Shown here: positions 3,638 through 19,478 of the stretch, piece by piece
How the letters are laid out: each line of letters begins with the position of its first letter
How positions within the stretch are numbered: position 1 is the first letter of the stretch
Virus record (IMG/VR): IMGVR_UViG_3300027759_000479
Span: 1 to 21,719 of that record
DNA: 21,719 nucleotides
Reading direction: 5' to 3' (one strand)
From: a virus
Position numbers and translations under genes: made by a program
The notes under the pieces: generated by a model
Seen by the model: only the letters and a program-made list of their open reading frames with translations
Database searches by the model: none
Told to the model about the DNA's origin: nothing

Positions 3638-3640
3638 CGG

Positions 3641-3646
3641 TAAATA
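3641..3646 (+). promoter_or_regulatory. TAAATA late-promoter-like box, portal gene
   Basis: TAAATA begins 4 nt after the tape measure stop and ends 7 nt before the gp20 ATG at 3654. With T4 late promoter spacing, transcription would start 1-2 nt before the start codon. There is no Shine-Dalgarno sequence in the gap. Confidence 0.5.
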
Positions 3647-3653
3647 TACGACC

Positions 3654-5483
3654 ATGGCAGACAATCAAAACACTCGCAAACCCGGTTGGAAAAAGTATTT
3701 CAAAGTTGCAAACACCGGCGGCTCACTGAGTCCAATTTCAGGACAAAATCAATTTGGATTAGATGGCTACCCTAGACAGACCGGTGGTGAATACAGCACC
3801 GGTGGCACACCCAACGACTTTGCATTCCGCAATTATGCCAGCAGATTGCCTGAAGTATATTCAGGACATCCTAACCGAATTGAACGCTATAATCAATACG
3901 AAAATATGGATTGCGATTCGGAAGTTAATGCCTGTTTGGATATCATTGCTGAGTTTTCAACACAGGTCAACGAAGATAACAAAACACCGTTTGACATTAA
4001 TTTTACAGACAAGCCTACCGATCACGAAGTAGAAATTATTAAGAAACAGCTACAACAGTGGACCAAACTAAACAAGCTGGATCAACGCATATTCAAACTG
4101 TTCCGCAACACTATCAAGTATGGCGATCAAGTGTTTGTGCGTGATCCAGAAACTTTTGAAATGATGTGGGTTGACATGGTCAAAGTGGCCCGTGTGATTG
4201 TAAATGAAAGCGAAGGCAAGCGCCCAGAGCAGTATATCATTCGTGATATTAATCCTAACTTCCAAAACATGAGTGTGGCACAAAAAACCACCAGTGACTA
4301 TTATGTAAGCCGTGCGTTAGGCGGTGGCACTAATACTAATAATTATAGCAGTCCTGGCGGAGGTGGCGCCGGCGGCGGAACCGGCAATGGCGGAGTAGGC
4401 AACAGCAGATTTACACAGGCCATGAACGAAACCTGTATTGACGCACGTCACGTGGTGCATTTGAGCCTAAACGAAGGACTTGATTACTTTTGGCCATTTG
4501 GACAAAGTATACTGGAAAACATTTTCAAAGTGTTCAAGCAGAAAGAACTGCTGGAAGACTCAGTGCTGATTTATCGTGTGCAACGTGCTCCTGAGCGTAG
4601 AATCTTCAAGATTGACGTGGGCAACATGCCAAGCCATATGGCCATGCAGTTTGTTGAGCGTGTCAAAAATGAAATGCATCAACGCAGAATCCCTACCAAT
4701 ACTGGTGGTGGCGCCAACATGATGGATGCCAGTTACAATCCCTTGTCAATCAACGAAGATTACTTCTTTCCAGTCAGTGCTGACAGCAGAGGATCAGACG
4801 TTACTACCTTACCCGGTGGTGCTAATCTAGGCGAAATTGACGATTTAAAATACTTTAATAACAAAATGGCCCGTGGTCTGCGTGTGCCTTCAAGCTACTT
4901 GCCCACTGGCCCAGACGACTCAGACCGTGCGTTAAATGACGGCAAAGTAGGCACAGCCTTGATACAAGAATACCGTTTTAATCAATACTGTATGCGTTTA
5001 CAACGCCTAATTATGCAGAAATTAGATGATGAATTTAAGATGTTTCTGCGTTGGAGAGGCTTTAATATTGATGCAGGCCTGTTTACAATTAGCCTGTGCG
5101 AGCCACAAAACTTTGCCAGCTATCGTCAAAGCGAGTTAGATACCAGTCGTATCTCGTCGTTTGCAGCTATTGAACCGTTGCCGTATTTCAGCAAGCGTTT
5201 CTTGATGAAACGTTACCTAGGACTCAGCGAAGAAGAACTGGTAGAAAATGAAACACTGTGGCAAGAAGAACGTGACCAACCAGAGTTAGAAACTACACAA
5301 GGACAAGATCTGCGTAGTATTGGTATTACACCAGCTGGGCTAGAAAGTGATATTGCTACAGGTGAAGAAATAACCGGGGCAGATGCTATGGGCGGACCAG
5401 AGGGTGGTATACCTGGGGCACCAACTACAGCACCTGGCACTGCTGGAGCACCGCCTCCAACTAGCGGAGTGCCCGGTGTATAA
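3654..5483 (+). CDS. 20: Portal vertex protein gp20
   Basis: This 609-aa protein forms the dodecameric portal through which DNA is packaged and ejected and on which the prohead is initiated. The diagnostic blocks are VQRAPERRIFKIDVGNMP, the DVTTLPGGANLGEIDDLKYF block, and ARGLRVPSSYLP with the following YRFNQYCMRLQRLI region, all typical of T4-like gp20. Residues 223-252 are a Gly/Asn-rich insertion that looks like a flexible loop; the C-terminal ~40 residues are Gly/Ala/Pro/Thr-rich. I chose ATG 3654 (MADNQNTRKPGWKKYF): a longer reading from 3606 would overlap the tape measure gene by about 30 nt and add a tail with no family resemblance. The stop codon at 5481-5483 is embedded in the TATAAATA box of the next gene. 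Confidence 0.95.
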   Translation: MADNQNTRKPGWKKYFKVANTGGSLSPISGQNQFGLDGYPRQTGGEYSTGGTPNDFAFRNYASRLPEVYSGHPNRIERYNQYENMDCDSEVNACLDIIAEFSTQVNEDNKTPFDINFTDKPTDHEVEIIKKQLQQWTKLNKLDQRIFKLFRNTIKYGDQVFVRDPETFEMMWVDMVKVARVIVNESEGKRPEQYIIRDINPNFQNMSVAQKTTSDYYVSRALGGGTNTNNYSSPGGGGAGGGTGNGGVGNSRFTQAMNETCIDARHVVHLSLNEGLDYFWPFGQSILENIFKVFKQKELLEDSVLIYRVQRAPERRIFKIDVGNMPSHMAMQFVERVKNEMHQRRIPTNTGGGANMMDASYNPLSINEDYFFPVSADSRGSDVTTLPGGANLGEIDDLKYFNNKMARGLRVPSSYLPTGPDDSDRALNDGKVGTALIQEYRFNQYCMRLQRLIMQKLDDEFKMFLRWRGFNIDAGLFTISLCEPQNFASYRQSELDTSRISSFAAIEPLPYFSKRFLMKRYLGLSEEELVENETLWQEERDQPELETTQGQDLRSIGITPAGLESDIATGEEITGADAMGGPEGGIPGAPTTAPGTAGAPPPTSGVPGV

Positions 5484-5486
5484 ATA
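5479..5486 (+). promoter_or_regulatory. Perfect T4-type late promoter TATAAATA
   Basis: An exact eight-base match to the T4 late promoter. It overlaps the gp20 stop (TAA at 5481-5483) and ends 5 nt before the ATG at 5492, so with T4 spacing transcription would start on that ATG. Confidence 0.65.
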
Positions 5487-5491
5487 CTAGT

Positions 5492-5713
5492 ATGATTCTC
5501 AACGAAATATACAAAAAAAGTCCTGAAGCTTATCAGGATGTTAGCCAAGATAACAGTCAACCTCAACTGGGTAATCTTCGCAAAACTCGTCTGACTTTGC
5601 GTCAGCTTAACAAACTACGTCAGATGCAAGATGTGCGTAGTTACGAGTATAAAGAAAAACTTAAACAAGTTAAGAAACAATATGCACCCGCCCCGGCTGC
5701 TCCTGGACTGTAA
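5492..5713 (+). CDS. Small basic prohead protein in gp67 position (73 aa)
   Basis: A 73-residue basic protein: N-terminal MILNEIYKKSPEAYQD, a Lys/Arg/Leu/Gln-rich central part (KTRLTLRQLNKLRQMQDVR), then KLKQVKKQYAPAPAAPGL. It lies between gp20 and the acidic core protein, the place of the prohead core gene 67 in T4, and similar short proteins occur there in T4-like cyanophages. T4 gp67 is acidic whereas this one is basic, so homology is not claimed; a role in the prohead core or DNA packaging is inferred from position. There is no Shine-Dalgarno sequence: the ATG lies 5 nt after a perfect TATAAATA box. Confidence 0.8.
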   Translation: MILNEIYKKSPEAYQDVSQDNSQPQLGNLRKTRLTLRQLNKLRQMQDVRSYEYKEKLKQVKKQYAPAPAAPGL

Positions 5714-5763
5714 TTAGCTGTAACACAACAGTCAAATATACTCACTTTTCCGCCTCAAAACTA

Positions 5764-5814
5764 CCAATATTATAAGTTAGATGTAAATATCTAACGAGCC
5801 ATAACCATTGGAGG
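5764..5814 (+). promoter_or_regulatory. TAAATA box inside a perfect inverted repeat, with possible Shine-Dalgarno masking
   Basis: GTTAGAT (5776-5782) and ATCTAAC (5789-5795) form a perfect 7-bp inverted repeat with a 6-nt loop; the loop and the right arm contain TAAATA (5784-5789). Outside it, CCAAT (5764-5768) is complementary to ATTGG (5807-5811), which overlaps the GGAGG Shine-Dalgarno sequence (5810-5814) of the core protein gene. Read-through transcripts could therefore fold this site, while a transcript starting just after the TAAATA box (about 5795) would lack both left arms. Function is inferred. Confidence 0.45.
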
Positions 5815-5819
5815 AACAT

Positions 5820-6695
5820 ATGACTAATAAATTTGAACAATTGATCGAATACGTGATCAATGATGAAGAAGCGAAAGCTAAAGAACTATTCCACGACATC
5901 GTGGTAGAAAAATCTCGTGAAATCTATGAAAATTTGATGAACGAGGAAGAAGACGAAGAGTTGGACGAAGAGTCTGATGCCGAACGTGACGACCATGCTG
6001 AAAAAGCTGGTAAGAAAGTGGCCAAAGACATCGAGTACGACGAAATGCACGAAGATTTTGGCGGCGATGCCAGCGATGACTTGATTGACGATGTTGAAGC
6101 CGAAGAACAAGGCATGCAAGAAGACGAAGAGTCTGACGTTGAATTTGACGATGCAGCCGAAGAAGACGGCGAAGATCTAACACACGACATGGAAAAAGAC
6201 CACGATGACGAAGGCGACATCGAAGACCGCGTGGTTGATTTAGAAGACAAATTAGACGAACTCATGGCTGAATTTGAAGCTATTATGGGCGGCGAAGGCG
6301 GCGACAGTGTGTCTGATATCGACGGCGGCGACGCTTTAGAAATGGATGACACAGACACAGCTGACTTTGGCGACATGGACGAAACAATGGGCATGATGGA
6401 AAATGTAACGTTGGACAAAGTGCCTGCTCCTAAGCACGGTGACGATGGTGCTAACAACAAAAGCGTAGTTGCTTTTAACAGTGGTGCTAAAGGCATGGCA
6501 GCAAGCCCAGTTAAAATGACTGGTGACACAGCTCAAGGCCGTAGTGCTCCAAAAACTAGTGACTTGCCACAAGCAGGCCAGTTTAAAAATGTACCAGGCA
6601 AAGGCGGCGCCAACTCCAAGTTGAGTGCAGCTCCGAAGCCTACTACAGCTCAAGCCAGTGGTGTTAATACAAAATCACCAGTTGGTAAAGCGTAA
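5820..6695 (+). CDS. Acidic prohead core (internal scaffold) protein
   Basis: A 291-aa protein starting MTNKFEQLIEYVINDEE, then FHDIVVEKSREIYENLM, a start pattern shared with prohead core proteins of T4-like cyanophages. Residues about 40-200 are extremely acidic, with runs of E and D and few bulky residues; the last ~90 residues switch to a Lys/Ala/Gly/Pro/Ser-rich basic tail. T4 core proteins (gp67, gp68) sit here between gp20 and gp21, fill the prohead and are degraded by gp21. The start is ATG 5820, which has GGAGG 5 nt upstream; an in-frame TTG at 5808 overlaps that Shine-Dalgarno sequence and is less likely. The exact T4 counterpart (67 or 68) is not decided. Confidence 0.82.
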   Translation: MTNKFEQLIEYVINDEEAKAKELFHDIVVEKSREIYENLMNEEEDEELDEESDAERDDHAEKAGKKVAKDIEYDEMHEDFGGDASDDLIDDVEAEEQGMQEDEESDVEFDDAAEEDGEDLTHDMEKDHDDEGDIEDRVVDLEDKLDELMAEFEAIMGGEGGDSVSDIDGGDALEMDDTDTADFGDMDETMGMMENVTLDKVPAPKHGDDGANNKSVVAFNSGAKGMAASPVKMTGDTAQGRSAPKTSDLPQAGQFKNVPGKGGANSKLSAAPKPTTAQASGVNTKSPVGKA

Positions 6696-8478: not shown

Positions 8479-9675
8479 ATGTCACAAGAATTATTAGAAG
8501 GTCGTTGGGACGAAACTAAAGACGCACTCTTGGAAGGCCTTTCTGGTTCCAAGCGCACGTCTATGAGCGTAATCCTTGAAAATACCAAGAAGTATTTGCG
8601 TGAGAACGCATCTTCTGGTTCTACAGTAAGTGGTAACATTGCTACATTAAACCGTGTGATTCTGCCAGTTATTCGACGTGTTATGCCAACTGTTATTGCT
8701 AACGAGTTGGTTGGTGTTCAGCCAATGACAGGTCCTGTAGGTCAAATCCACACATTACGTGTTCGCTATGCACAAAGTTTAACTGACAATTCAGCAGCCG
8801 CTACTAGCGTCCAAGCTGGTCAAGAAGCTTTGAGTCCTTTCACTATTGCTACTGCTTACTCTACTGTTCCACAAACTACTACAACAGCTACTGGATACAC
8901 AGGTAACAACACAGCAACAATGGAAGGTACAGGCGGTAAGCAGATTTCCGTTCAGATCTTGAAACAAGCTGTTGAAGCTAAGACACGCAAGTTACAAGCT
9001 CGTTGGACATTTGAATCTGCACAAGATGCACAAGCTATGCACGGTATTGATGTAGAAGCTGAAATCATGGCTGCTCTTGCACAAGAGATCACAGCTGAGA
9101 TTGATCAAGAGATTCTCTTGAGCTTGTCTACATTGGCAGCTACTGAGTATACATACAACCAAGCTACCGTTTCTGGTACAGCTACATTCGTTGGTGACGA
9201 GCATGCCGCATTGGCAGTTCTGATCAATCGTACAGCTAACCTGATCGCTCAGCGCACACGTCGTGGCGCTGGTAACTGGGCTGTTGTTTCTCCAGCTAGT
9301 TTGACAGTATTGCAAAGTGCAACAACTTCTGCTTTTGCTCGCACAACAGAAGGCACATTTGAAGCTCCTACAAACACCAAGTTTGTTGGTACATTGAATG
9401 GCGCTATGCGTGTGTTTGTAAACTCTTATGCTTCTGATACAGCTTCTGTATTGGTTGGATATAAGGGCACAAGCGAAGCTGATGCCGCAGCGTTCTATTG
9501 CCCATACATTCCATTGATGAGCAGTGGCGTTGTTCTTGATCCATCAACTTTCGAACCAGTCGTATCATTCATGACACGTTATGGCTTCGTTGAGTTGACC
9601 AACACAGCATCCAGCTTCGGTAACGCAGCTGACTATGTTGGCGAGATCGCAGTTCAAAACTTGTCATTCTCCTAA
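8479..9675 (+). CDS. 23: Major capsid protein gp23
   Basis: The 398-aa HK97-fold major head protein of the T4 family. Recognisable blocks are NRVILPVIRRVMPTVIANEL, VGVQPMTGPVGQIHTLRVRY, and the run TRKLQARWTFESAQDAQAMHG, GIDVEAEIMAALAQEITAEI, which match the conserved gp23 core. The N-terminus (SQELLEGRWDETKDALLEG) is a typical removable delta domain. A gp21-type cleavage pattern, LRE followed by N, places a candidate processing site after E42; ILE at 32-34 is another. At 398 residues it is clearly shorter than T4 gp23 (521), so the T4 insertion domain is probably reduced or absent. Strong AAGGAGA Shine-Dalgarno sequence; the stop is followed by an intrinsic terminator. Confidence 0.95.
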   Translation: MSQELLEGRWDETKDALLEGLSGSKRTSMSVILENTKKYLRENASSGSTVSGNIATLNRVILPVIRRVMPTVIANELVGVQPMTGPVGQIHTLRVRYAQSLTDNSAAATSVQAGQEALSPFTIATAYSTVPQTTTTATGYTGNNTATMEGTGGKQISVQILKQAVEAKTRKLQARWTFESAQDAQAMHGIDVEAEIMAALAQEITAEIDQEILLSLSTLAATEYTYNQATVSGTATFVGDEHAALAVLINRTANLIAQRTRRGAGNWAVVSPASLTVLQSATTSAFARTTEGTFEAPTNTKFVGTLNGAMRVFVNSYASDTASVLVGYKGTSEADAAAFYCPYIPLMSSGVVLDPSTFEPVVSFMTRYGFVELTNTASSFGNAADYVGEIAVQNLSFS

Positions 9676-9706: not shown

Positions 9707-9730
9707 AAACCTGCTTCGGCAGGTTTTTCT
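9707..9730 (+). terminator. Intrinsic terminator after gp23
   Basis: AAACCTGC (9707-9714) pairs perfectly with GCAGGTTT (9719-9726) across a TTCG tetraloop and runs into T-rich sequence. It closes the head-gene block and separates it from the accessory genes. Confidence 0.93.
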
Positions 9731-9749
9731 TTGGTGTCAATAATATTAA

Positions 9750-9755
9750 CAAATA
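9750..9755 (+). promoter_or_regulatory. Degenerate late-promoter-like box (CAAATA)
   Basis: CAAATA, one mismatch from TAAATA, ends 8 nt before the ATG at 9764. No Shine-Dalgarno sequence is visible in between. This resembles the close box-to-ATG arrangement of the tape measure, gp20 and TPR-GT genes but is a weaker match. Confidence 0.25.
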
Positions 9756-9763
9756 AGTAAACG

Positions 9764-10756
9764 ATGAAATTCAAAGTGCCGTACTATCACGACCCTAAAG
9801 ATATTATTTTTAACAGTGATTTTTCTATTAATCATAAATTTTTTGAGAATCTTACACCAACTTCGCCGGTAGTGCTGAATTTATCATTGGATCCATACAA
9901 TGTTAAAGAAATAAATGAACTACTTAAATTGCAAGGAATAAACACTGATAACATTATATTTTTAACATCAAATTACGATCTAGACTCAACATACAATAAT
10001 ATAATTTTTTATCCAAGTTGGTTAATATCTACCAGTCTTTCGTTGAAAAAAATACCGATTAATCTAAAAAGGAATTATAAGATTAGTTGTCTTAATCGAA
10101 TAGCCAAAGGTCATAGATTTTATCTTTTTTACTTGTTAAAAGAAAAAAAATATTTTAATGAACTAGTGTATACATTGCAAGGACTGTGTTCCTATGACAA
10201 CAACTTGACATGGGACAATGGTCAAATTGCAGGGCTGGATGACTTACCAAAAAAAGTTAAGTTAGAATTGAGCAAACTAGATCTAAATATAACAACAATG
10301 AAGGTACCGGATCCAAACATAAATGTCAATGACCATTCTACCAATCATATTGCCTACTCAGACAGTTATATGAATATTGTTACAGAAAGTTCGTATAGAT
10401 TTGCAACACCGTTTTTTAGCGAAAAAACTATAAAACCATTGGCGTCTGGCCAGTTGTTTTCGATGGCAGGTGATCAGAACAGTATTAACTCACTTAGAGC
10501 ACTTGGATTTGAAACATTTGATCATGCATTTGACAATCACAATTATGATAACTTTGTTACATATAAACAAAGAATTGATTCAATGGTTGAACTGGTAGAT
10601 TGTGTTTATGAAAACATTGAATCAATATATTTTGATAATATTCAAGCCATAACTCACAATCAAGATTATGCATTGTCCGACCATTTTAGAAATAGTTTTT
10701 TTAAACCACTTTTAGATTTAGATATTGTTGATACTTTAAATTTTATACCAACTTAA
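9764..10756 (+). CDS. Glycosyltransferase-like protein with GT10-type motif block
   Basis: A 330-aa protein rich in Asn, Ile, Lys, Phe and Tyr. Residues 203-265 (NIVTESSYRFATPFFSEKTI, KPLASGQLFSMAGD, then LRALGFETFD and HNYDNF) follow the pattern iVtEt...f.tEKt.KPi..G.pF...g....L..LGF.tF seen in the C-terminal half of GT10 fucosyltransferase-like proteins and many phage glycosyltransferase-like proteins. Residues 109-131 (CLNRIAKGHRFYLFYLL) look like the usual N-R...HR...L..L segment. Donor and acceptor are unknown. It is visibly more AT-rich than its neighbours and uses AT-ending codons, which suggests recent transfer. It sits between the gp23 terminator and a convergent glycosyltransferase-like gene, whose end it overlaps by 21 bp. 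Confidence 0.75.
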   Translation: MKFKVPYYHDPKDIIFNSDFSINHKFFENLTPTSPVVLNLSLDPYNVKEINELLKLQGINTDNIIFLTSNYDLDSTYNNIIFYPSWLISTSLSLKKIPINLKRNYKISCLNRIAKGHRFYLFYLLKEKKYFNELVYTLQGLCSYDNNLTWDNGQIAGLDDLPKKVKLELSKLDLNITTMKVPDPNINVNDHSTNHIAYSDSYMNIVTESSYRFATPFFSEKTIKPLASGQLFSMAGDQNSINSLRALGFETFDHAFDNHNYDNFVTYKQRIDSMVELVDCVYENIESIYFDNIQAITHNQDYALSDHFRNSFFKPLLDLDIVDTLNFIPT

Positions 10757-11881
10757 GAATTTGTGTATTTTGTCTACGACACTGGCCCAATCGCCCATTT
10801 TAGGTTGGCGAAACAACCTAGCTGATGAATACCATGGACTTGAATCTCTATCAAGCAACCAGCGCCAGTCCAGCGCATACTGACTCAACATAACCCATAC
10901 AGGTCGACCCAATGCGCCAGCCAAGTGGGCTACAGCAGTATCAACACTGAGCACCACATCCATGTGCATGATCAATGCGGCTGAGTCAGCAAAACTTCGT
11001 ATGGCGCCCGGATATGCTCGGACACCTGCGGCCACTAACTCAGCCTCTTCTTCCGCGGTACAATCACATTGTAGGTTGACCCACTCGTAGCCTGGATTGC
11101 AACGGATTAACTCTAACATGGTTTCAAACGGCATGCCCTTGTGACGATTGATCCAGGTATCTCTACGACCACTCCAACAAAAGCCCACACGCAGTCGATT
11201 TTTAGGTCCCAACGTTGTTTGCCATTCTTTTTGTAATCGGGCGTCGGCAGTCAAGTAGTATTGCACGTTGGCCATGTTCTCAAGAGTTGATCCAATTACA
11301 CCAGGGATGCTCATAATAGGAATCCAATAATCAAATTCAGGCAACGGGTCACCTTCGACTAAAATTGTAGTAATAGAAGGCCCTAGTATCAATGGGCGAA
11401 GATTTTGATTTAACGTTACTATTACTCGAGCGCCACGACTAGTAATGTCACCAATAAATCGAACAAATTGTATATTGTCGCCGTGGCCCTGTTCACCTAC
11501 TACCAAAACAGTTTTATCTTTGATATCTTGACCAGTCCATCTGGGTTGTGGATATTTTGGCAACTCGCCAGCTAAGTGCTCATAATTCCAGCGACTTTCG
11601 TACTGTGGCCAACCACGGGCGTAATCACCAGCTAACAAATAAGCCACAGCCAAGTTGAATTGTGCAGTTGGATGTTGTGGAGCCAATTGTATACTACGTT
11701 GTAAAAATGGTATAGCACCAATTGCGTCTCCACATTCGCGTAATACGTTGCCGTAGTTGTTGAATGCTGATGCTGAATTACGATCTTCAGTTAATGCCTG
11801 GGCATAGTATTTTAGTGCCAGTTCTGGGTTGTTTTCTTCTCTGGCAGTATTGCCGTGCGCTATTAAAAGTTCTGTGTTCAT
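10736..11881 (-). CDS. TPR-repeat protein with GT9-type glycosyltransferase domain
   Basis: A 381-aa protein. Residues about 2-100 hold three TPR repeats (AREENNPELALKYYAQAL; NNYGNVLRECGDAIGAI; FNLAVAYLLAGDYARGW, ending PQYESRW). A second domain follows with PRWTGQ, TVLVVGEQGHGDNIQFVRFI, CWSGRRDTWINRHKGMPF, then VLSVDTAVAHLAGALGRPVW and LDWRWLLDRDSSPWY. These are the classic blocks of bacterial TPR plus glycosyltransferase family 9-like proteins, where TVAHLAGALG corresponds to the nucleotide-sugar-binding side. It may glycosylate a virion or surface protein; no substrate is shown. I chose ATG 11881 (MNTELLIAHG) because TAAATA lies exactly 5 nt upstream, as in the tape measure and gp67-position genes; ATG 11887 overlaps the box. 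It is convergent with the GT10-like gene. Confidence 0.85.
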   Translation of the reverse strand: MNTELLIAHGNTAREENNPELALKYYAQALTEDRNSASAFNNYGNVLRECGDAIGAIPFLQRSIQLAPQHPTAQFNLAVAYLLAGDYARGWPQYESRWNYEHLAGELPKYPQPRWTGQDIKDKTVLVVGEQGHGDNIQFVRFIGDITSRGARVIVTLNQNLRPLILGPSITTILVEGDPLPEFDYWIPIMSIPGVIGSTLENMANVQYYLTADARLQKEWQTTLGPKNRLRVGFCWSGRRDTWINRHKGMPFETMLELIRCNPGYEWVNLQCDCTAEEEAELVAAGVRAYPGAIRSFADSAALIMHMDVVLSVDTAVAHLAGALGRPVWVMLSQYALDWRWLLDRDSSPWYSSARLFRQPKMGDWASVVDKIHKFLSWYKI

Positions 11882-11886
11882 GATCA

Positions 11887-11892
11887 TATTTA
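11887..11892 (-). promoter_or_regulatory. TAAATA late-promoter-like box, TPR-GT gene
   Basis: On the minus strand the sequence reads TAAATA, TGATC, ATG: the box ends exactly 5 nt before ATG 11881. There is no Shine-Dalgarno sequence. This is the minus-strand counterpart of the box-to-ATG arrangement at 1269, 3641 and 5479. Confidence 0.42.
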
Positions 11893-11928
11893 ATGGGCTA
11901 CAGCAACACCTGTAAAATATATATTAGC

Positions 11929-11936
11929 CATAAATA
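11929..11936 (+). promoter_or_regulatory. CATAAATA late-promoter-like box upstream of fibre gene 12029
   Basis: Matches TATAAATA at seven of eight positions. With T4 spacing transcription would begin near 11942, just before the first of three hairpins, giving a leader of about 87 nt. Confidence 0.55.
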
Positions 11937-11942
11937 CTTGTC

Positions 11943-12001
11943 AACGCAATCATGCGTTTTATGCGGCTCTTAACCCAGCCGCGTAGTGGGCTAGAACCCA
12001 C
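11943..12001 (+). promoter_or_regulatory. Three tandem perfect hairpins in the 5' leader of gene 12029
   Basis: AACGCA/TGCGTT (11943-11948, 11953-11958; loop ATCA), GCGGCT/AGCCGC (11963-11968, 11977-11982; 8-nt loop) and GTGGG/CCCAC (11986-11990, 11997-12001; 6-nt loop) follow one another with spacers of 3-4 nt. None is followed by a T tract, so they are not terminators. They lie between the CATAAATA box and the AAGGAGA Shine-Dalgarno sequence, which stays unpaired. A role in mRNA stability or control of a strongly expressed virion gene is inferred. Confidence 0.6.
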
Positions 12002-12028
12002 ATGGGACTTCTTTAAGGAGAAAACAAA

Positions 12029-12976
12029 ATGGGTCGTCCACTTAAAATTAAACAATCTACCACCATCGACATTGGTTTCAATGACTTTGGTAACTTAACA
12101 GCGGCAGTTATTCCAACCGGATTAACTTCTACAGAATTCTTAGGCGTGGTTGGTGGCGCTAATGTTGGTATAGCTACAACCGATTATCCAGTGGTTAAGA
12201 TTACAGCCAACATCAACAGTGTTCAGGGTGCAGCTTACATTATCACACAGAAAGGCACTACCAAGTATCTAGTGACAGATGCAACTTCGGTCAGTGCAGG
12301 AAGTTTCACAGTTGGTTACAGCTATCGAATTCTTGCAGTAGGCAATACCAATTGGACAGCAATTGGTGGCCCTGCTACACCAACTGTTGGCGCTGTGTTC
12401 ACAGCCACAGGCATAGGATCTGGTACAGGTACTGCTACTGCGGTGGCCCAATGCAATTTAGTTGGAAACGCCACAATCAACAGCGGTGAAATGAATATGG
12501 TATTCAATGCTGACGGCAGTGCAATATATGCCACTCGCTTGACCAACAAGTATATTTGGGATAATTCGGCTACACCGGTTCGTTATGCGGTTAACTTCTT
12601 TGTAGCTGGAGATTCAGCAGCTGTTACTCTTGCCAGTGTTGCTGTTGCCAATGCTTCAGGTTGGTTTACAGCCAATGCCAGTTCCTTTACAACCGGTCAA
12701 CTGATCAATGTCAGCGGAGCTTTGACAGGTAATGCTACAATCACTGGTTATGTTAATCCAACAACATATTACGTGGTTGCTACCAATGGAACAACAGCAT
12801 TCCAGTTGGCTGCGTCAGAAGGTGCTGCTAACATTGTTACTGCGGCTGGTAATACCCGTGGCCTTACATTTAGTGAAGCTGTTTCAACAACTGTTAAATC
12901 TGGTGCAGAAACAGAAACCTGGGCCAATGGCACTGGTGATCTTACATTGGGTGATGTTCAAAATTACACTTCGTAA
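12029..12976 (+). CDS. Virion structural/decoration protein, modular (315 aa)
   Basis: Starts MGRPLKIKQST, a start I recognise from structural proteins of T4-like cyanophages. A core reading VKITANINSVQGAAYIITQK, TKYLVTDA, then CNLVGNATINSGEMNMVFN and LTNKYIWD is interrupted by two Gly/Thr-rich modules. Residues about 88-138 (FTVGYSYRILAVGNTNWTAI followed by GTGTATA) match a module found in many phage fibre proteins (Y.I...G.T.FTAIGA...VG..FTATG.G.GTGT). Residues about 196-281 (FTTGQLINVSG, TITGYVNPTTYYVVATNG, TTAFQL) are a second common fibre module. It is probably a head or tail surface protein. Strong AAGGAGA Shine-Dalgarno sequence, hairpin-rich leader upstream and an intrinsic terminator downstream indicate a monocistronic, well-expressed gene. 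Confidence 0.8.
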   Translation: MGRPLKIKQSTTIDIGFNDFGNLTAAVIPTGLTSTEFLGVVGGANVGIATTDYPVVKITANINSVQGAAYIITQKGTTKYLVTDATSVSAGSFTVGYSYRILAVGNTNWTAIGGPATPTVGAVFTATGIGSGTGTATAVAQCNLVGNATINSGEMNMVFNADGSAIYATRLTNKYIWDNSATPVRYAVNFFVAGDSAAVTLASVAVANASGWFTANASSFTTGQLINVSGALTGNATITGYVNPTTYYVVATNGTTAFQLAASEGAANIVTAAGNTRGLTFSEAVSTTVKSGAETETWANGTGDLTLGDVQNYTS

Positions 12977-13068: not shown

Positions 13069-13674
13069 ATGGCAACCTATAAGAATATTAGCAGTGACTG
13101 GTACATTACCGTAGACAGCGGACAAGGCACAATTTATATTGACGGTAACTTGGACGTGGCTGGTAATATTACCTACGTCAGTGATATTGCTGTTAATGAT
13201 GCATTTATTATTGTAGCTGCCAACAATACCGGCACAGTTAATGATATGGGTTTGGTGGCCACAAAAGTTGCCAACACTGCCTGGGCTGGACTTAGATTTG
13301 ATGTTAGTGCAAATGCCTGGCAGATTAGCAGTAGTGTTTATGGCAACGGTGTTCCTGTTGCGGCCTATGCAAATATTTTAACTACATCATCTACAGCCAA
13401 TGCTGCTGGATCCAACACACAGATACAGTTCAACCAAGGTGGCACCTTTGGAGCCAGTGCTAATTTAACATTTGATTATGGCAACAACAAGTTGACCATG
13501 TTGGGCTATCAAGTTTTTGGCAACACCGCCACTCCAGCCAACGTGGCCAATGCTGTGGCACTATACAGCAACGTTACAGGATCAGGTGGCACCGGTCTAT
13601 ACTTTACATCTGCATCAGCCAACGACGAGCTGGTCAGCAAGAGCAAAGCCATAGTATTTGCAATCATATTTTAA
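13069..13674 (+). CDS. Tail fibre-like structural protein (201 aa)
   Basis: Opens MATYKNISSDWYITVD, then IDGNLDVAGNITYVSDIAV and DMGLVATKVANTAWAGLRFD, a module also present near the N-terminus of the long fibre at 19479 (NLTVQGQTTTVDT... DIGTIGLRG... LGWKE). A second phage-fibre motif follows at about 123-145 (AGSNTQIQFNQGG, FGASANLTFDY). It ends DELVSKSKAIVFAIIF, an ending known to me from T4-like phage virion proteins. Composition is Asn/Ala/Thr/Gly-rich, as for its neighbours. It probably forms part of a fibre or decoration assembly with the next two genes. AAAAGGA Shine-Dalgarno sequence upstream. Confidence 0.78.
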   Translation: MATYKNISSDWYITVDSGQGTIYIDGNLDVAGNITYVSDIAVNDAFIIVAANNTGTVNDMGLVATKVANTAWAGLRFDVSANAWQISSSVYGNGVPVAAYANILTTSSTANAAGSNTQIQFNQGGTFGASANLTFDYGNNKLTMLGYQVFGNTATPANVANAVALYSNVTGSGGTGLYFTSASANDELVSKSKAIVFAIIF

Positions 13675-13683
13675 GGAACAACA

Positions 13684-13998
13684 ATGTCAATAACAACCGC
13701 AGCAATAGGCAACACAGTCAGCAACGTATACGTCAGTGGCGGAAACACTGCTATTACCTGGTTAGCCATAAACAATTCAACCGCTAATACGGTCACTGCC
13801 AACGTGTATGCCGTGCCAGCAGGTAGCACAGCCAACACACAAAATTTAATTTTAACCAATATAGAAATGACTGGTTATGAAACATATCAATTGTATAATG
13901 CGGCAGAAAAATTATTGTTAGGTACCAATGACAGTATACAAGTGGTAGCCAACACCAGCGGAAACCTTAATGTAGTGACCAGTTATACTACAATCTAA
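13684..13998 (+). CDS. Small virion structural protein (104 aa)
   Basis: A 104-residue, predicted beta-rich protein. The segment AITWLAINNSTANTVTANVY followed by VPAG, and the later YNAAEKLLLGTNDSIQVVAN, resemble the small tail-associated proteins of cyanophages of the form NAI..L...N......VNVHLVP..G and E.IIL...D.I. The function is unknown beyond a likely virion role. AAGGA Shine-Dalgarno sequence 9 nt after the previous stop; its own stop overlaps the next start (TAATG at 13996-14000), so the two are coupled. Confidence 0.72.
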   Translation: MSITTAAIGNTVSNVYVSGGNTAITWLAINNSTANTVTANVYAVPAGSTANTQNLILTNIEMTGYETYQLYNAAEKLLLGTNDSIQVVANTSGNLNVVTSYTTI

Positions 13999-14396
13999 TG
14001 GGATATTATGTAAAAAATCGACGACTACAAAGCGGCAGTACCGGCGTAGTCTTACCTACAGGATCGTCAGAAACTCGTCCTGAATATCCAACATTTGGTA
14101 TGATTCGATACAACACTGATGTGGGCTTGGTAGAATTCTTTAATGGATCAGTCTGGAATACACTCAGCACTGGTGGCAGCGTTAGCTACACTGTAGATGA
14201 TTTTACCGGTAACGGAGTTCAAACGCTTTTTACAATGACTATAGCAGAAGATGTAGCAGAAAATATCATAGTATTTGTAGGGTCAATCTATCAAGATCCA
14301 GCTACAAGTTATACAGTCGATGGTGGTTATGACATTACATTCACATCAGCACCACCCAATACCGTGCCAATTAATGTAATTCACACCTCAAGTTAA
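13998..14396 (+). CDS. Small fibre-module protein (132 aa)
   Basis: Carries two modules that recur in this window: TRPEYPTFGMIRYNTDVGLV followed by EFFNGSVW (residues 26-54), and DDFTGNGVQTLFTM (67-80) with VFVGSIYQDPATSYTVDGG and ITFTSAPP. The same pair ends the proteins at 17849 and 19479. In phage fibres the first module often marks the end of a shaft and the second a beta-sandwich-like tip; this is family knowledge applied by pattern. Translation is coupled to the upstream gene by a 1-nt overlap with no Shine-Dalgarno sequence of its own. It may be a stand-alone tip or adaptor protein. Confidence 0.75.
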   Translation: MGYYVKNRRLQSGSTGVVLPTGSSETRPEYPTFGMIRYNTDVGLVEFFNGSVWNTLSTGGSVSYTVDDFTGNGVQTLFTMTIAEDVAENIIVFVGSIYQDPATSYTVDGGYDITFTSAPPNTVPINVIHTSS

Positions 14397-14401
14397 TCAA
14401 C

Positions 14402-14407
14402 TAAATA
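14402..14407 (+). promoter_or_regulatory. TAAATA late-promoter-like box upstream of PKD adhesin gene
   Basis: TAAATA (in ACTAAATATCC) lies 19 nt before the ATG at 14427, just after the stop at 14394-14396. A CAGGGA Shine-Dalgarno-like sequence lies between the box and the ATG. Confidence 0.5.
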
Positions 14408-14426
14408 TCCTATACAGGGATAATCT

Positions 14427-17400
14427 ATGGCAGTTAACTACGTAAAAGGGCAAATTTTATCAGACATTCTCGAAAGAGATGGCATTGATATATCTATTGC
14501 CAATGCCAATGTTGGGATCAACACAACTACTCCTACGGTGGCCCTTGATGTTTACGGCAATATCAACGCTAATAATCTCAGTACCACTGGCAATGTTGTC
14601 GGTGGTAATATTGTAGCAGGTAATATCGTATTGGCCAGCACTGGCAACATCAGTGCAGGCAATGTCAATATCAATAATCTAGCAGAGCCAGTGGCCAACG
14701 CAGATGCCACAACCAAATTTTATGTAGATCAAACAGTAGGAAATGTTGCTGGCAACATATCTGGCAATCTAATTCCATTAGGAACACCCACTGACGGTAG
14801 CCTAACTACCAACGTGGCCTATCCAGGATGGACTACTGCTACATTTGTAACTGATGGCCTAGACGATCTAAATCAAGTGGCTCTGAACATTGCTGGAAAC
14901 ACCTATGTGGGTAATGTTTACATCACTGCCAACGTAACATCTGGACCAAGCCCACTCAGTGTGGCATTTACTGGACACTACATTGGTAATCCAAACAGTT
15001 ACCTTTGGGATTTTGGTGACGGTAATACCAGCACCTTGGCCAATCCAACACACACCTACAGCAATGTGCTTGGTGGACAATTTACAGTGGTTTATACTGC
15101 CTACAACACCAACGGAACTTACAGTGGCAACGCCGCAGCTGGTGCTAAAGGATCAACAGCAACATCAACCAACACCAATTACATCACTTTGTTTACACCG
15201 TTACCAATACCATCGTTTAACACAAGCCCAACAACGTTGGACACCGGTAGCAGTGTGACACTGACCAACACCAGTCAGTATGCTACATCTTATTCAATCA
15301 ACTATGGCGATGGTAATATTGTCAACCCTGGCAATAGTTTTACTACCAACAGCCATACCTACATTAACTCTGCCAACACTGATGCCATATACGGAATCAA
15401 CTTAACAGGCACAAATCAAACGGCGGGTAATGCACCACCCTACAGTGTTACGTCAGCCAACACCAATGTTAAAGTTTACGCACCACAGAGTCCTGCAGTA
15501 GCGGCCAATGTTGCAACCATAATCAACTACTTGGCCACGTCAGGTGGTGTGGTAAGTTTTCAAAATCAAACACCTGGCAGTCCTGGTAACACAGCCAGCT
15601 TTGGCGCCCAGCAGTTGTATAACTTCCAATGGGGCGACAGCACAGCCAACAGCAACATCAATATTCAAACTGGATTAGCTGGTAATCCTGGTGCGGCCAA
15701 CGTTACTCATACCTTTGCTCTTACAGCCGGTCAACAAAATGCCGCAACCACGGTAAACCGTGTGGCCAATCTTTGGTTATACACCGGCTTCAGCACCAGC
15801 CCATTTAAGTCCAGCAACGTGACCATTTCAATCGAACCCGAAGTCAGAGCTGGCTTTGTAGGAACCAGTAATACACAAACCGATGCTACCGGATTTACAT
15901 CCAATGCACAGGTTGGATATCTATACACCGACTACAACGGTCTTGATAGAAGTTTATTCAACTTCCGCAACGATACCTCGCCCAATGTGGCCTTTACTGG
16001 AAATGTGTTCAACTGGACCTGGGGCGATACTACCAGCAACACCGGTCTGATAACTTTTGCTAATGTGACACATTCATATCTAACGGCTGTAGGGTCGCCA
16101 ACTACTGGAACTAAAACAGTGGCATTGCAGGCTAACGGAACTCCGGGAACCATATCACAAAGTAACACACAGACTCGAACAGCCTACATCACAATCTTGG
16201 CCAATCCTACAGCACCTACTAATCTCAGTGGCTATACTAATGTAACCATAGCCACAGCCAGTCAAGGCACTAGCCCGTTGTTGGCCGCTGGTGCCCAAGA
16301 CAATACCGGTGGTAACATTGTGGCCAACGGGACCGCAGTGCTTCGTGTAGCAACTACCACACCAGTTGCTACTAGCACACAGGTTCAAAATGCCAATACT
16401 GCAACCACAGGCACATTAACTGCCTTTGTTAATAATACAGCTGCCGGTAACGTAACATTTACTACCAGCGGAAACACAGTAGGCACAGCAGGAGCATTGA
16501 TTGTGTCAGCTGATCGAGATTTGCATGTGGCTAATGCCGCTGTGCCTACAGGATTCTACAAGGTATTTTCTGCCACTATCAGCAATACTTTGGCCAGCTT
16601 GGGCACCGGTTACAATGATTTCCAACTGAGACACACAGTATCGGGCAACACCAATACAGTGGGCATGGTCAAAGACAATTTAAATTCAGCACCTACCCTA
16701 GTGACCAGCAACGTGGTCATGGCCGGTAACGTTGCTGGAACTTACACTTACATATCAGGTATTCCTTATTACAGCGCCACCGGAAGTCCAAGTATTACTG
16801 TGGCCACGTTGGAACTGCAAAATTTTACAGGTCAAACTTTTCGCAGTGCTGATCCAATGACATTGAGTGCTGGCTCGGCTATAGAAGGCACAGGATCAAT
16901 CATTGCCACACAAACCAAAACTTTGGCACAGATTAACGGAACAACTAGTATGCTCACTGGTAGTAATGTCAATGCCAATGTGGGCATTGCATCAAACTAT
17001 ACTATGGGCAATCTTAATGTGCTGATCAACGGAGCGGTCAATGCTGTGGCCAACGTGGGTGCCAACATATTCAACGTGATTGGTACCAGCACCACAGTTC
17101 AATTGCCAACCAAAATACAGGTCAATGCCGCGGCCAATACTGGCATTAGTGAAGGCAACATTGCGGTCAGTGCTACACTAGGATCTGTGTATACCGACAA
17201 TGGATTACGCATAACCGGCTTTGGCTCAGCAGCCAACACACCTGCATTCAATGGAGCCACAAACTACTACACTGGCAACGTTTGGACTGGAGTGCAAACC
17301 ATTGCCGGTACACAAGAAGCAGTTGATCGATATGGTGTAGTTAGACACTATGTTACAGATTTGTCATCTGGATATTTGCCAGTAGGGCCCAATCTTGCCA

Positions 17401-17849
17401 CAGGACGAAGTGGATTACAATACTTTACTTTTGCTTTCCGTAGAGCCACAATGGCCAACTTTGATATCAGACTTACCAGCACCACAGGCATCGCTGGCAT
17501 GTGGATTGCGGCCCCGGGCACTACAATTGACACAGGTGGATTCAGTTCGCCTACTCCAGGATTTCCAGGACCAACATCAACGCTTGATGGTTGGTTAAGT
17601 TGTTCACTACAGTATAACGGATCAGGTGTGCCAGGCGCAAATATAGCCGGAGGCGGTAACGGAACCAATGGTGTTGCTGTAACCGGTGCCGATGTTGTAC
17701 CACTTAATTCGGCCATTGCCAATGTGGCATATACTATGACCTTGGGTTCGCAAAACTCAAGCAACAGCACAGGCAATAATGTTTTGGTTCGTATAGCATT
17801 GAGTAGTGGACAAACTATAACTGCACTTTCAATAGGAGACGCTGCGTAA
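14427..17849 (+). CDS. Large PKD-domain adhesin/fibre protein (1140 aa)
   Basis: The N-terminus (MAVNYVKGQILSDILERDG, then VGINTTTPTVALDVYGN) is a phage fibre attachment and trunk pattern, followed by GNI/GNV repeats and EPVANADATTKFYVDQ (a motif shared with the fibre at 19479). Residues about 172-595 hold four PKD-like Ig-fold domains with the core W-x-F/W-G-D-G/S/T: WDFGDG 194-199, YGDG 293-296, WGDS 402-405, WGDT 532-535, each followed by an aromatic strand such as HTYS, SHTY, THTF, THSY. The middle is Thr/Asn/Ala-rich. The C-terminal ~140 residues (YFTFAFRRATMANFDIRLTS; TGIAGMWIAAPG; NNVLVRIALSSGQTITALS) match a domain known from cyanophage virion proteins. PKD domains bind glycans or proteins, so a role in adhesion to cells is likely. 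Its stop overlaps the next start (TAATG). Confidence 0.85.
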   Translation: MAVNYVKGQILSDILERDGIDISIANANVGINTTTPTVALDVYGNINANNLSTTGNVVGGNIVAGNIVLASTGNISAGNVNINNLAEPVANADATTKFYVDQTVGNVAGNISGNLIPLGTPTDGSLTTNVAYPGWTTATFVTDGLDDLNQVALNIAGNTYVGNVYITANVTSGPSPLSVAFTGHYIGNPNSYLWDFGDGNTSTLANPTHTYSNVLGGQFTVVYTAYNTNGTYSGNAAAGAKGSTATSTNTNYITLFTPLPIPSFNTSPTTLDTGSSVTLTNTSQYATSYSINYGDGNIVNPGNSFTTNSHTYINSANTDAIYGINLTGTNQTAGNAPPYSVTSANTNVKVYAPQSPAVAANVATIINYLATSGGVVSFQNQTPGSPGNTASFGAQQLYNFQWGDSTANSNINIQTGLAGNPGAANVTHTFALTAGQQNAATTVNRVANLWLYTGFSTSPFKSSNVTISIEPEVRAGFVGTSNTQTDATGFTSNAQVGYLYTDYNGLDRSLFNFRNDTSPNVAFTGNVFNWTWGDTTSNTGLITFANVTHSYLTAVGSPTTGTKTVALQANGTPGTISQSNTQTRTAYITILANPTAPTNLSGYTNVTIATASQGTSPLLAAGAQDNTGGNIVANGTAVLRVATTTPVATSTQVQNANTATTGTLTAFVNNTAAGNVTFTTSGNTVGTAGALIVSADRDLHVANAAVPTGFYKVFSATISNTLASLGTGYNDFQLRHTVSGNTNTVGMVKDNLNSAPTLVTSNVVMAGNVAGTYTYISGIPYYSATGSPSITVATLELQNFTGQTFRSADPMTLSAGSAIEGTGSIIATQTKTLAQINGTTSMLTGSNVNANVGIASNYTMGNLNVLINGAVNAVANVGANIFNVIGTSTTVQLPTKIQVNAAANTGISEGNIAVSATLGSVYTDNGLRITGFGSAANTPAFNGATNYYTGNVWTGVQTIAGTQEAVDRYGVVRHYVTDLSSGYLPVGPNLATGRSGLQYFTFAFRRATMANFDIRLTSTTGIAGMWIAAPGTTIDTGGFSSPTPGFPGPTSTLDGWLSCSLQYNGSGVPGANIAGGGNGTNGVAVTGADVVPLNSAIANVAYTMTLGSQNSSNSTGNNVLVRIALSSGQTITALSIGDAA

Positions 17850-19243
17850 TGGCTGCTTCATTTAACGAAAGTCAAAAACTAGACTATCTTTGGAAGAAAG
17901 TTGGTTACGGTGTAGCCAAAACGTCTATTCCTCCTCCCGGCAGTGGCAGTAAAGAAGCGTATAACGAAAGCATACCTAGCCCTCTGCTGTACCGTGGCGA
18001 TTTGGTCTGGACCAACAGCGGTGATATTCCTGCTAATCCGCCTAGCAATACCACATCAATTGTTCAAGTTTATAAAGACGGTGGCGGCGGCGGTTACAGT
18101 GCCACTGTGCAGTGTACCGAAGATTTTACAGCACCTGACAATCAAACTTGGAAAACAAATCTTACCAACTGGATACCCACGCAGTTTGGCGACAATTATT
18201 TGGTAGTGGTTTACGTAGACACTACAGGATCTACAACTCCACAAACCACTGGCACCAGACTGTTCCAGACTGGGTCTGGCAGTGACGACACATGGTTTTT
18301 TGATTATCAAGCCGGTATTCTAAACTTCAACGGCGCTACGATTCCGTCAGTGATCGCCGGTGGTATCTCAGGAAAATCTGTGTTTATTGTGGGCTACAGA
18401 TATGTAGGACCAATTGGTGTGGTTGGTAATGCTGTGCTGGGCAACTTGACCATAAGCAATACCACAATCAGCAGCAGTTTGGCCAACGCCACAATCACAT
18501 TGGAGCCAACTGGAACTGGAGTAGTCAGTATTGACACTACCACAGGATTGATCATTCCAGTGGGCAACATAACACAGAGACCCGGATACCCAACTTATTC
18601 TGCTACATCTTTGGCCACTATACGATATAATAATGATTATAACTATCTTGAATATTATGACGGAACTGAATGGTTAGAAGTTGGTGTAGGAGCCGGCGGT
18701 GCCATAGCTGATCAACAGATCACACCCGATGGAACCAGTGTCACCTATACTCTAACTCAAGATACCGATCAAACCAGCATTCTGGTTGCTATCAACGGTG
18801 TGGGCCAAATACCTGGATCTGCATATTCTGTAACTGGTAATCTTATCACGTTCTCAGAAGCTCCGTTGACCAGTGATGCAATTGACATTAGATTTTTGGC
18901 CTCAGCTTCTGTTACCAGCAAAATAATCAACGGTGCTGGTACTACCTATGTAGAAACCACTGGCGCCAACACAGTGGTTTCTAATGTATCAGGCACCAAC
19001 ATTATGGTGGTTTCCAGCACCGGCGTAAGTGTAGTTGGCAATGTTGTAACCAACAATATCAGCGCAGATCAAAGTTTAACGTTGCCAAGCTATACTGTAG
19101 CTCAGTCAGCAAACATTTCAGCACCGGTGGCAGGACAAGTAATTTATGTATCCAACGGAGATGCTGGCAACCCGTGCTTGGCAGTTTACAGCAGTGGTGC
19201 GTGGAAACGTGTCAGTTTAGGTGCAAATATCAGCGCAACATGA
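17849..19243 (+). CDS. Tail-associated structural protein with fibre modules (464 aa)
   Basis: Starts MAASFNESQKLDYLWKKVGY, then NESIPSPLLYRGDLVWTNSG, a pair of blocks recognised from virion structural proteins of T4-like cyanophages (FNESQK..FLWKK...; NESI.SPLL.RGD.VW..SG..P). Residues about 208-290 hold a fibre module with QRPGYPTYSATSLATIRYN and YLEYYDGTEWLEVG, residues about 292-352 the ITPDGTSVTYTLTQD and VAINGVGQIPGSAY tip module, and the last 50 a further module ending LAVYSSGAWKRVSLG. The N-terminal part probably attaches to the virion and the rest displays tips. Start ATG overlaps the stop of the PKD protein (17847-17851, TAATG), so the two are co-translated and may be partners. Confidence 0.82.
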   Translation: MAASFNESQKLDYLWKKVGYGVAKTSIPPPGSGSKEAYNESIPSPLLYRGDLVWTNSGDIPANPPSNTTSIVQVYKDGGGGGYSATVQCTEDFTAPDNQTWKTNLTNWIPTQFGDNYLVVVYVDTTGSTTPQTTGTRLFQTGSGSDDTWFFDYQAGILNFNGATIPSVIAGGISGKSVFIVGYRYVGPIGVVGNAVLGNLTISNTTISSSLANATITLEPTGTGVVSIDTTTGLIIPVGNITQRPGYPTYSATSLATIRYNNDYNYLEYYDGTEWLEVGVGAGGAIADQQITPDGTSVTYTLTQDTDQTSILVAINGVGQIPGSAYSVTGNLITFSEAPLTSDAIDIRFLASASVTSKIINGAGTTYVETTGANTVVSNVSGTNIMVVSSTGVSVVGNVVTNNISADQSLTLPSYTVAQSANISAPVAGQVIYVSNGDAGNPCLAVYSSGAWKRVSLGANISAT

Positions 19244-19270: not shown

Positions 19271-19378
19271 AGTATTCACCCAATTGTTATTCTACAATTT
19301 ATAACCTCCAAATAGTTCTCCACACGTTAACTCAGCAGTGAATAATAGGCACAGAGAACCGTTTTCTCACGGCCGCAC

Positions 19379-19384
19379 TAAATA
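19379..19384 (+). promoter_or_regulatory. TAAATA late-promoter-like box 2, leader of terminal fibre
   Basis: A second TAAATA in the same 235-nt gap (CACTAAATAAC). If used it would give a leader of about 90 nt that still contains the ACTGCA/TGCAGT hairpins. A GAGAA/TTCTC inverted repeat (19354-19358, 19364-19368) lies just upstream. Confidence 0.45.
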
Positions 19385-19422
19385 ACATATAGCCCGTATT
19401 GGAACGGACAAAACGTTTATTA

Positions 19423-19455
19423 TTTTACTGCAAATGCAGTGAAAGTGCAGTAAAA
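19423..19455 (+). promoter_or_regulatory. Competing hairpins just before the fibre Shine-Dalgarno sequence
   Basis: TTTTACTGCA (19423-19432) is the perfect complement of TGCAGTAAAA (19446-19455). A second copy, TGCAGT (19435-19440), lies in the loop, so ACTGC can pair either with the near copy (ACTGC-AAAT-GCAGT) or with the far copy (10 bp). Only one can form at a time. The CTGGAGAG Shine-Dalgarno sequence follows 10 nt later. A second small stem CCGT/ACGG (19394-19397, 19404-19407) lies upstream. A switch function is inferred. The rest of the 235-nt gap shows no gene. Confidence 0.5.
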
Positions 19456-19478
19456 AGAAGCCAACTGGAGAGAAAAAA

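Follow-up and report, generated by a model that had tools for sequence, protein, structure and literature searches.

The characterised architecture that appears closest in logic to the enzyme described here is that of FlmG from Caulobacter crescentus, a soluble cytoplasmic enzyme in which an N-terminal TPR domain binds flagellin and Ser/Thr pseudaminylation depends on a C-terminal GT-B part (PMC7591256). The same TPR and GT-B combination is found in OGT and SPINDLY (GT41), and related catalytic folds are present in the GT9 heptosyltransferases WaaC and WaaF. Among phage enzymes, the T4 alpha- and beta-glucosyltransferases glycosylate modified phage DNA, and the gtr-type serotype-conversion enzymes have membrane segments. 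Virion glycosylation has been reported for the capsid and tail tube of mycobacteriophages, with phage-encoded glycosyltransferases proposed as the decorators (work cited in PMC12619734). Mycobacteriophages are different phages from the one investigated here, and the likeness is one of proposed function.

In the present study, a 21.7 kb stretch of viral DNA (record IMGVR_UViG_3300027759_000479, positions 1 to 21,719; the window) was analysed. It contains a T4-type structural block, followed by two genes, P1 and P2, and then by a fibre block, and its source is an uncultured T4 relative, probably from fresh water. Both P1 and P2 look like glycosyltransferases and very probably are. The features of the locus are as follows.

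Structural block: gp20, portal-like (PHROG-type family match)
Structural block: gp21 and gp22 (assigned from position and context)
8479..9675, + strand: gp23 major capsid protein, bordering the slot on its upstream side (PF07068, E 2.9e-97; phrog_138)
9708..9735, + strand: gp23 terminator-like hairpin AACCTGC-TTCG-GCAGGTT with T-run (TTTC), read from the sequence
9736..9763, + strand: P1 leader with late-promoter-like AAATAAGTA near the ATG (leader and motif comparison)
9764..10756, + strand: P1, 330 aa, GT10-like predicted GT-B glycosyltransferase, cargo of the exchangeable slot (FucT profile match, hhalign against GT10, BFVD family, GC content)
10736..10756, both strands: convergent P1/P2 overlap of 21 bp (terminal P1 codons LNFIPT-stop from the antisense of the P2 3′ end)
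10736..11881, − strand: P2, 381 aa, TPR (approximately residues 1-95) and GT9-like GT-B domain (PF01075 and TPR matches, AF2, Foldseek)
11882..11895, − strand: P2 start region, late-promoter-like ATTAAATA 4-6 nt before the P2 start (TAA[AG]TA count)
11929..11938, + strand: late-promoter-like motif CATAAATACT of F1, divergent from P2 (homologous intergenic regions)
11942..12031, + strand: freshwater-2 RNA (Rfam RF02980), F1 leader (65.8 bits, E 2.9e-8)
12029..12976, + strand: F1, 315-aa structural-block protein, candidate acceptor (51 of 51 loci, composition)
13069..19243, + strand: F2-F6, fibre block including a 1140-aa PKD-domain protein, further candidate acceptors (family matches, composition)

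As stated in the preliminary description, P1 and P2 are convergent ORFs that overlap by 21 bp, and they follow the gp23 terminator and precede the fibre block, the hairpin and T-run being located between the gp23 stop (9675) and P1. The hairpin raised no flag in a simple terminator scan of the window; it is present with its T-run at the same position downstream of gp23 in empty-site relatives. Because it follows gp23, P1 would be outside the capsid transcript, barring read-through. The P2 ORF can be extended to an upstream ATG at 11887 (383 aa); the start kept in homologues is the ATG at 11881.

P2, a TPR and GT9-like protein

Pfam, the structure model, and Foldseek all find in P2 the arrangement that defines the TPR-GT9-like family, an N-terminal TPR followed by a GT9-like GT-B domain, as had been read from the sequence beforehand. 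PF01075 (GT9) matches with 26.6 bits (E 4.5e-6, cut-off 22), as do several TPR models. The AF2 model has a pLDDT of 86 and a pTM of 0.83, and its best Foldseek matches are SPINDLY, OGT, XcOGT, heptosyltransferase II, and a GT9 protein from Veillonella. The C-terminal half alone found no match in PDB. TM-scores against OGT and SPINDLY are low (0.27-0.35), an effect of the poor alignment of long chains; these proteins share the architecture of P2, but its catalytic domain is GT9-like and the sequence match to them is limited to the TPRs. Likewise, WaaC and WaaF share PF01075 above cut-off and the fold (TMq 0.49-0.51), whereas P2 has an added TPR part and the EQGxGD and WY motifs specific to the TPR-GT family, and its acceptor is not expected to be lipopolysaccharide. 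FlmG, with which P2 is likened by architecture, not by sequence alignment, has the same domain order, although at 596 aa it has a longer TPR part than the approximately 95 residues in P2; no flagellin gene is present in the window.

Viral relatives of P2 number 45 (49-93% identity), and 239 matches in bacterial genomes were confirmed, the best at 39% identity, spanning Rhodospirillales, Telmatospirillum, cyanobacteria, Planctomycetes, and Burkholderiales. Cultured phages gave six weak matches, either below 27% identity or partial. Comparison with 92 bacterial relatives shows that E132, Q133, G134, G136, D137, H321, W352, and Y353 are kept in approximately 100%, and all are present in P2, which carries the EQGxGD, H321, WRW, and SPWY motifs of the bacterial TPR-GT9-like members. 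Pairwise dN/dS of P2 is approximately 0.06. Based on the family and fold matches, the intact invariant motifs, and this low ratio, P2 belongs to a bacterial TPR-GT family and looks active.

The bacterial relatives are usually at least 480 aa in length, compared with 381 aa for P2. Flagellin genes adjoin them in two loci (L161 and L144) and serralysin-C/RTX-type secreted-protein genes adjoin others (L147 and L182). In rhizobia, six relatives (L147, L155, L162, L166, L173, and L191) are fused chains of approximately 1680 aa; a second TPR-GT, approximately 500 aa long, often comes after them, and most of these six loci have an RTX/serralysin-C-type secreted protein upstream.

P1, a GT10-like protein

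The GT10 type previously proposed for P1 is invisible in the single sequence, which matches no Pfam and no PHROG family and does not reach the PF00852 cut-off, and emerges from the family profile. No match to P1 was found in cultured phages, and a degenerate-pattern search found no viral relative. Relatives were instead gathered via synteny, giving 12 divergent members including P1, with 17-27% identity to P1. PF00852 weakly matches two of the 12 (best E 0.0069). The profile made from all 12 matches the H. pylori alpha-1,3-fucosyltransferase (FucT; E 2.4e-4), and when 11 bona fide PF00852 proteins were collected from 150 genomes, each of the 11 scored above every other ORF in its own locus. 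With hhalign, the P1 family aligns to these 11 GT10 proteins at 92.5% (E 4.9e-7), pairing E208 and E220-K221 of P1, invariant in the 12 members, with the invariant E and EK of the GT10 donor site; the same profile against P2, as a control, gives a probability of 0.2%. The P1 profile found no match in three bacterial genomes. What P1 and the GT10 fucosyltransferases have in common is this E...EK motif with the surrounding stretch, the likeness being confined to approximately 55-90 residues of the C-terminal half and below Pfam detection for P1. It is fair, from these profile comparisons, to call P1 GT10-like without assigning it to GT10 as a member.

A structural check for a glycosyltransferase fold, which had been suggested for both proteins, separates them: the P2 model (pLDDT 86; SPINDLY, OGT, and WaaF matches) has the fold, and the P1 model is moderate (pLDDT 67), with PDB matches that are not significant (E >0.04) and, although many of the top ones are GT-B proteins, of mixed type with no GT10 among the best 50 listed. 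Among predicted viral proteins (BFVD), P1 matches a family of approximately 20 unannotated proteins from uncultured phages (TM 0.5-0.66). One member of this structural family (788 aa) is annotated as a UDP-glucose/GDP-mannose dehydrogenase, and beyond the family are annotated glycosyltransferases, including fucosyltransferases. The GC content of P1 is 29.5%, compared with 40-46% in every neighbouring gene, and catalytic-type invariants are kept across its 12 divergent family members.

The exchangeable slot between gp23 and P2

Identity of gp23 among the P2-carrying loci is 89-100%, except for L099 (87%). The interval between gp23 and P2 was surveyed in the 48 related loci that contain both genes, counted as loci, some of which are near-identical records. 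For clustering of slot ORFs, starts were taken after the gp23 stop, because frames that run on through the gp23 terminator have a translated segment in common. Nothing occupies the slot in 14 loci (interval of 60-235 bp), and the alternative cargo genes anticipated for this position were indeed found, glycosyltransferase-like, endonuclease, and other. A putative glycosyltransferase family of 277-317 aa, one member of which weakly matches DUF6492 (E 0.0015), is present in 12, homing endonucleases (SegE-type GIY-YIG or HNH/NUMOD3) in nine, a P1-type gene in eight, and other genes in five (radical SAM, GT17 read from the P2 side, structural or lectin-like proteins, and an unidentified 201-aa protein). 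The slot is therefore not a dedicated glycan locus, since endonucleases, radical SAM, and lectin-like genes are also carried. Endonuclease loci include L021, L023, L013, L039, L053, L054, L060, and L062, those of L013, L039, L053, and L060 being assigned by similarity to the remaining endonucleases, and these enzymes are possible drivers of cassette exchange.

In L010, where gp23 is 99.5% identical to that of the window, the slot is empty and 79 bp in length. In L004 and L011, almost the same terminator and leader as in the window, as far as the ATG, stand in front of a 277-aa gene; such leaders before different genes place the left border at the start codon. On the right, the exchange ends at the P2 stop, the last P1 codons (LNFIPT) being the reverse strand of the P2 3′ end, and a distant P1 in L099 ends alike (LNFKPA). 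Because these last codons are borrowed from the P2 3′ end, the 21-bp convergent overlap is explained without regulatory meaning, as a by-product of cassette insertion.

P1 and P2 had also been proposed as a pair, and the survey does not support a dedicated one. P2 is kept without P1, with the slot empty or otherwise filled, and P1 homologues are present behind gp23 with no P2 detected in L058 (at a contig end), L088, L089, L118 (twice), and L120. The pairing of P1 and P2 is thus not fixed: P2 is a gene of the lineage and the gp23-P2 interval is an exchangeable slot. The two P1-like genes of L118 are in tandem behind gp23 (4148-6093), with no P2 found on that phage contig.

Expression signals

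Distinct upstream regions were searched for TAA[AG]TA within 14 nt of the ATG. The motif precedes P2 in 38 of 38, only one of which has a Shine-Dalgarno-like site, compared with 0 of 74 for gp23, 0 of 70 for gp21, 0 of 61 for gp22, and 11 of 17 for gp20. An identical or degenerate motif is found at the equivalent place for P1 and the 277-aa genes. From the T4 late promoter, TATAAATA, transcription begins approximately six bases downstream; since the motif abuts the ATG, P1 and P2 would be late, leaderless genes. The motifs favour late expression of both, timing that would fit modification of a virion protein. In the window, TAAATA is present 3-8 nt before starts that have no Shine-Dalgarno site at 11882-11895 (P2), approximately 3640-3654 (gp20), and 5479-5492, which suggests, as far as sequence can, a class of leaderless late genes.

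Early expression of P2 from a good sigma70 site (TTGACA-17-TATATT, 11944..11916 on the minus strand) was considered and dropped for the late-type motif, because in homologues, as judged by eye, the −35 half falls on the beginning of the F1 leader, which is conserved, and the −10 half varies.

Unlike P2, F1 has CATAAATACT, near-universal in the homologous intergenic regions listed, and downstream of it the freshwater-2 RNA as leader, together with a strong Shine-Dalgarno site. A scan of 10 related T4-like loci placed this RNA, a cis-regulatory candidate according to the RF02980 entry line, directly before F1 in eight, reaching as far as the F1 start codon, whether or not P2 is present. The freshwater-2 RNA thereby gains a genomic home, as the 5′ leader of a phage fibre operon. 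At title/abstract level, no paper describing this RNA, or leaderless late genes in T4-like phages, was identified.

Candidate acceptors

P2 and F1 are divergent neighbours in all 51 loci that have both; F1 is present without P2 in four. The P2 genes of L043 and L044 are away from structural genes, among non-structural genes. No Pfam or PHROG family was found for F1. The richness of the fibre proteins in Ser, Thr, and Asn, raised earlier as a mark of acceptors, is real, at 29.5-39.4% in F1-F6 (30.8% in F1) against 13-25% in other structural proteins, but is ordinary for fibre proteins.

In sister loci without P2 (L112, 6962-7546; also L065, L089, and L100) there is a gene between F1 and F2. It has a weak match to alpha-2,3-sialyltransferase (phrog_4603, E 8e-4), so sugar-transferase-like genes recur in the fibre cluster.

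Proposed function and alternatives

It is proposed, at about even chances, that P2 is a FlmG/OGT-like glycosyltransferase of a virion (fibre) protein and that P1 provides a lineage-specific second sugar. With a promoter of its own, P2 would be expressed late in infection; its short TPR part would dock the acceptor and its GT-B domain would move one sugar from a nucleotide-sugar onto Ser/Thr. The target would most likely be a virion protein, with F1 or another fibre-block protein first in line. P1 would have come as an exchangeable cassette, inserted downstream of the gp23 terminator and bounded on the other side by the P2 stop codon, and most likely would add the second, lineage-specific sugar, on the P2 glycan or on another, altering the appearance of the particle to its surroundings or its binding to them. 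P1 need not extend the product of P2, since P1 homologues occur where no P2 was found (L088, L089, L118, and L120).

If P2 glycosylates a fibre or capsid protein, a whole T4-like lineage, apparently freshwater, builds sugar-coated particles. The coating enzyme would be short, soluble, and TPR-guided, an unusually compact protein O-glycosyltransferase at 381 aa when compared with most bacterial relatives, and neighbouring lineages would swap the second enzyme. This would give a testable genetic handle on the purpose of virion sugars, be it adsorption, protection from grazers, or particle stability.

A less probable explanation, although one with a substantial chance of being correct, is that the two genes are independent, P2 modifying a virion protein and P1 being a neutral or selfish slot filler. 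This would account for the empty slots (14 of 48), the homing endonucleases (nine of 48), the presence of P1 where no P2 is found, and the AT-rich, recently acquired nature of P1. However, glycosyltransferase-like genes of unrelated families recur in the slot, and catalytic-type invariants are retained by 12 divergent members of the P1 family.

Remodelling of the host surface (lipopolysaccharide, capsule, pili, or flagellin) by P1 and P2, for example in superinfection block or progeny release, with the slot merely accepting cargo, is considered unlikely. LPS heptosyltransferase II is among the closest characterised folds to P2, flagellin or RTX/serralysin-type genes adjoin its bacterial relatives, and P2 sits among non-structural genes in L043 and L044, all of which are consistent with a host target. 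Against this, no membrane segments were found in P1 or P2 (maximum KD19 of 1.4), unlike the gtr-type enzymes, the start regions of both genes are of late type, and the linkage of P2 to F1 is constant.

It is very improbable that modified phage DNA is the substrate of P1 (or P2), as it is of the T4 enzymes: T4 BGT and AGT are among the low-significance Foldseek matches to P1 (prob 0.72 and 0.21), but the similarity is not significant (E 0.09-0.7) and has no family match, the P1 sequence motif is of GT10 type, the TPR architecture of P2 is that of protein glycosyltransferases, and both genes are placed among late structural genes.

The proposed glycosylation of a virion protein by P2 can be extended to a modular virion-glycan system, in which P2 would be a constant priming O-glycosyltransferase locked to the fibre operon and the second glycosyltransferase (277-aa family, GT10-like P1, or GT17) would be an interchangeable cassette with fixed gp23-P2 borders, possibly exchanged with the aid of homing endonucleases. 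This extended form is speculative and rather doubtful. Were it correct, the sugars displayed would differ between close relatives, in a phage parallel to O-antigen serotype switching.

Other features of the window

The 1140-aa fibre protein (14427-17849) contains PKD domains, with a C-terminal part that matches phrog_8578, and is missing or replaced in several relatives. From approximately 19350 to 21719 on the + strand, an open frame of repeated NITGGNLLTGGLISATGNITS-type units runs past the contig end and represents a repetitive fibre protein. Adjoining the portal gene, a 785-aa protein (1280-3637) has a phage lysozyme domain near its C-terminus (PF00959, E 1.2e-13) and is possibly an internal virion or tail lysozyme.
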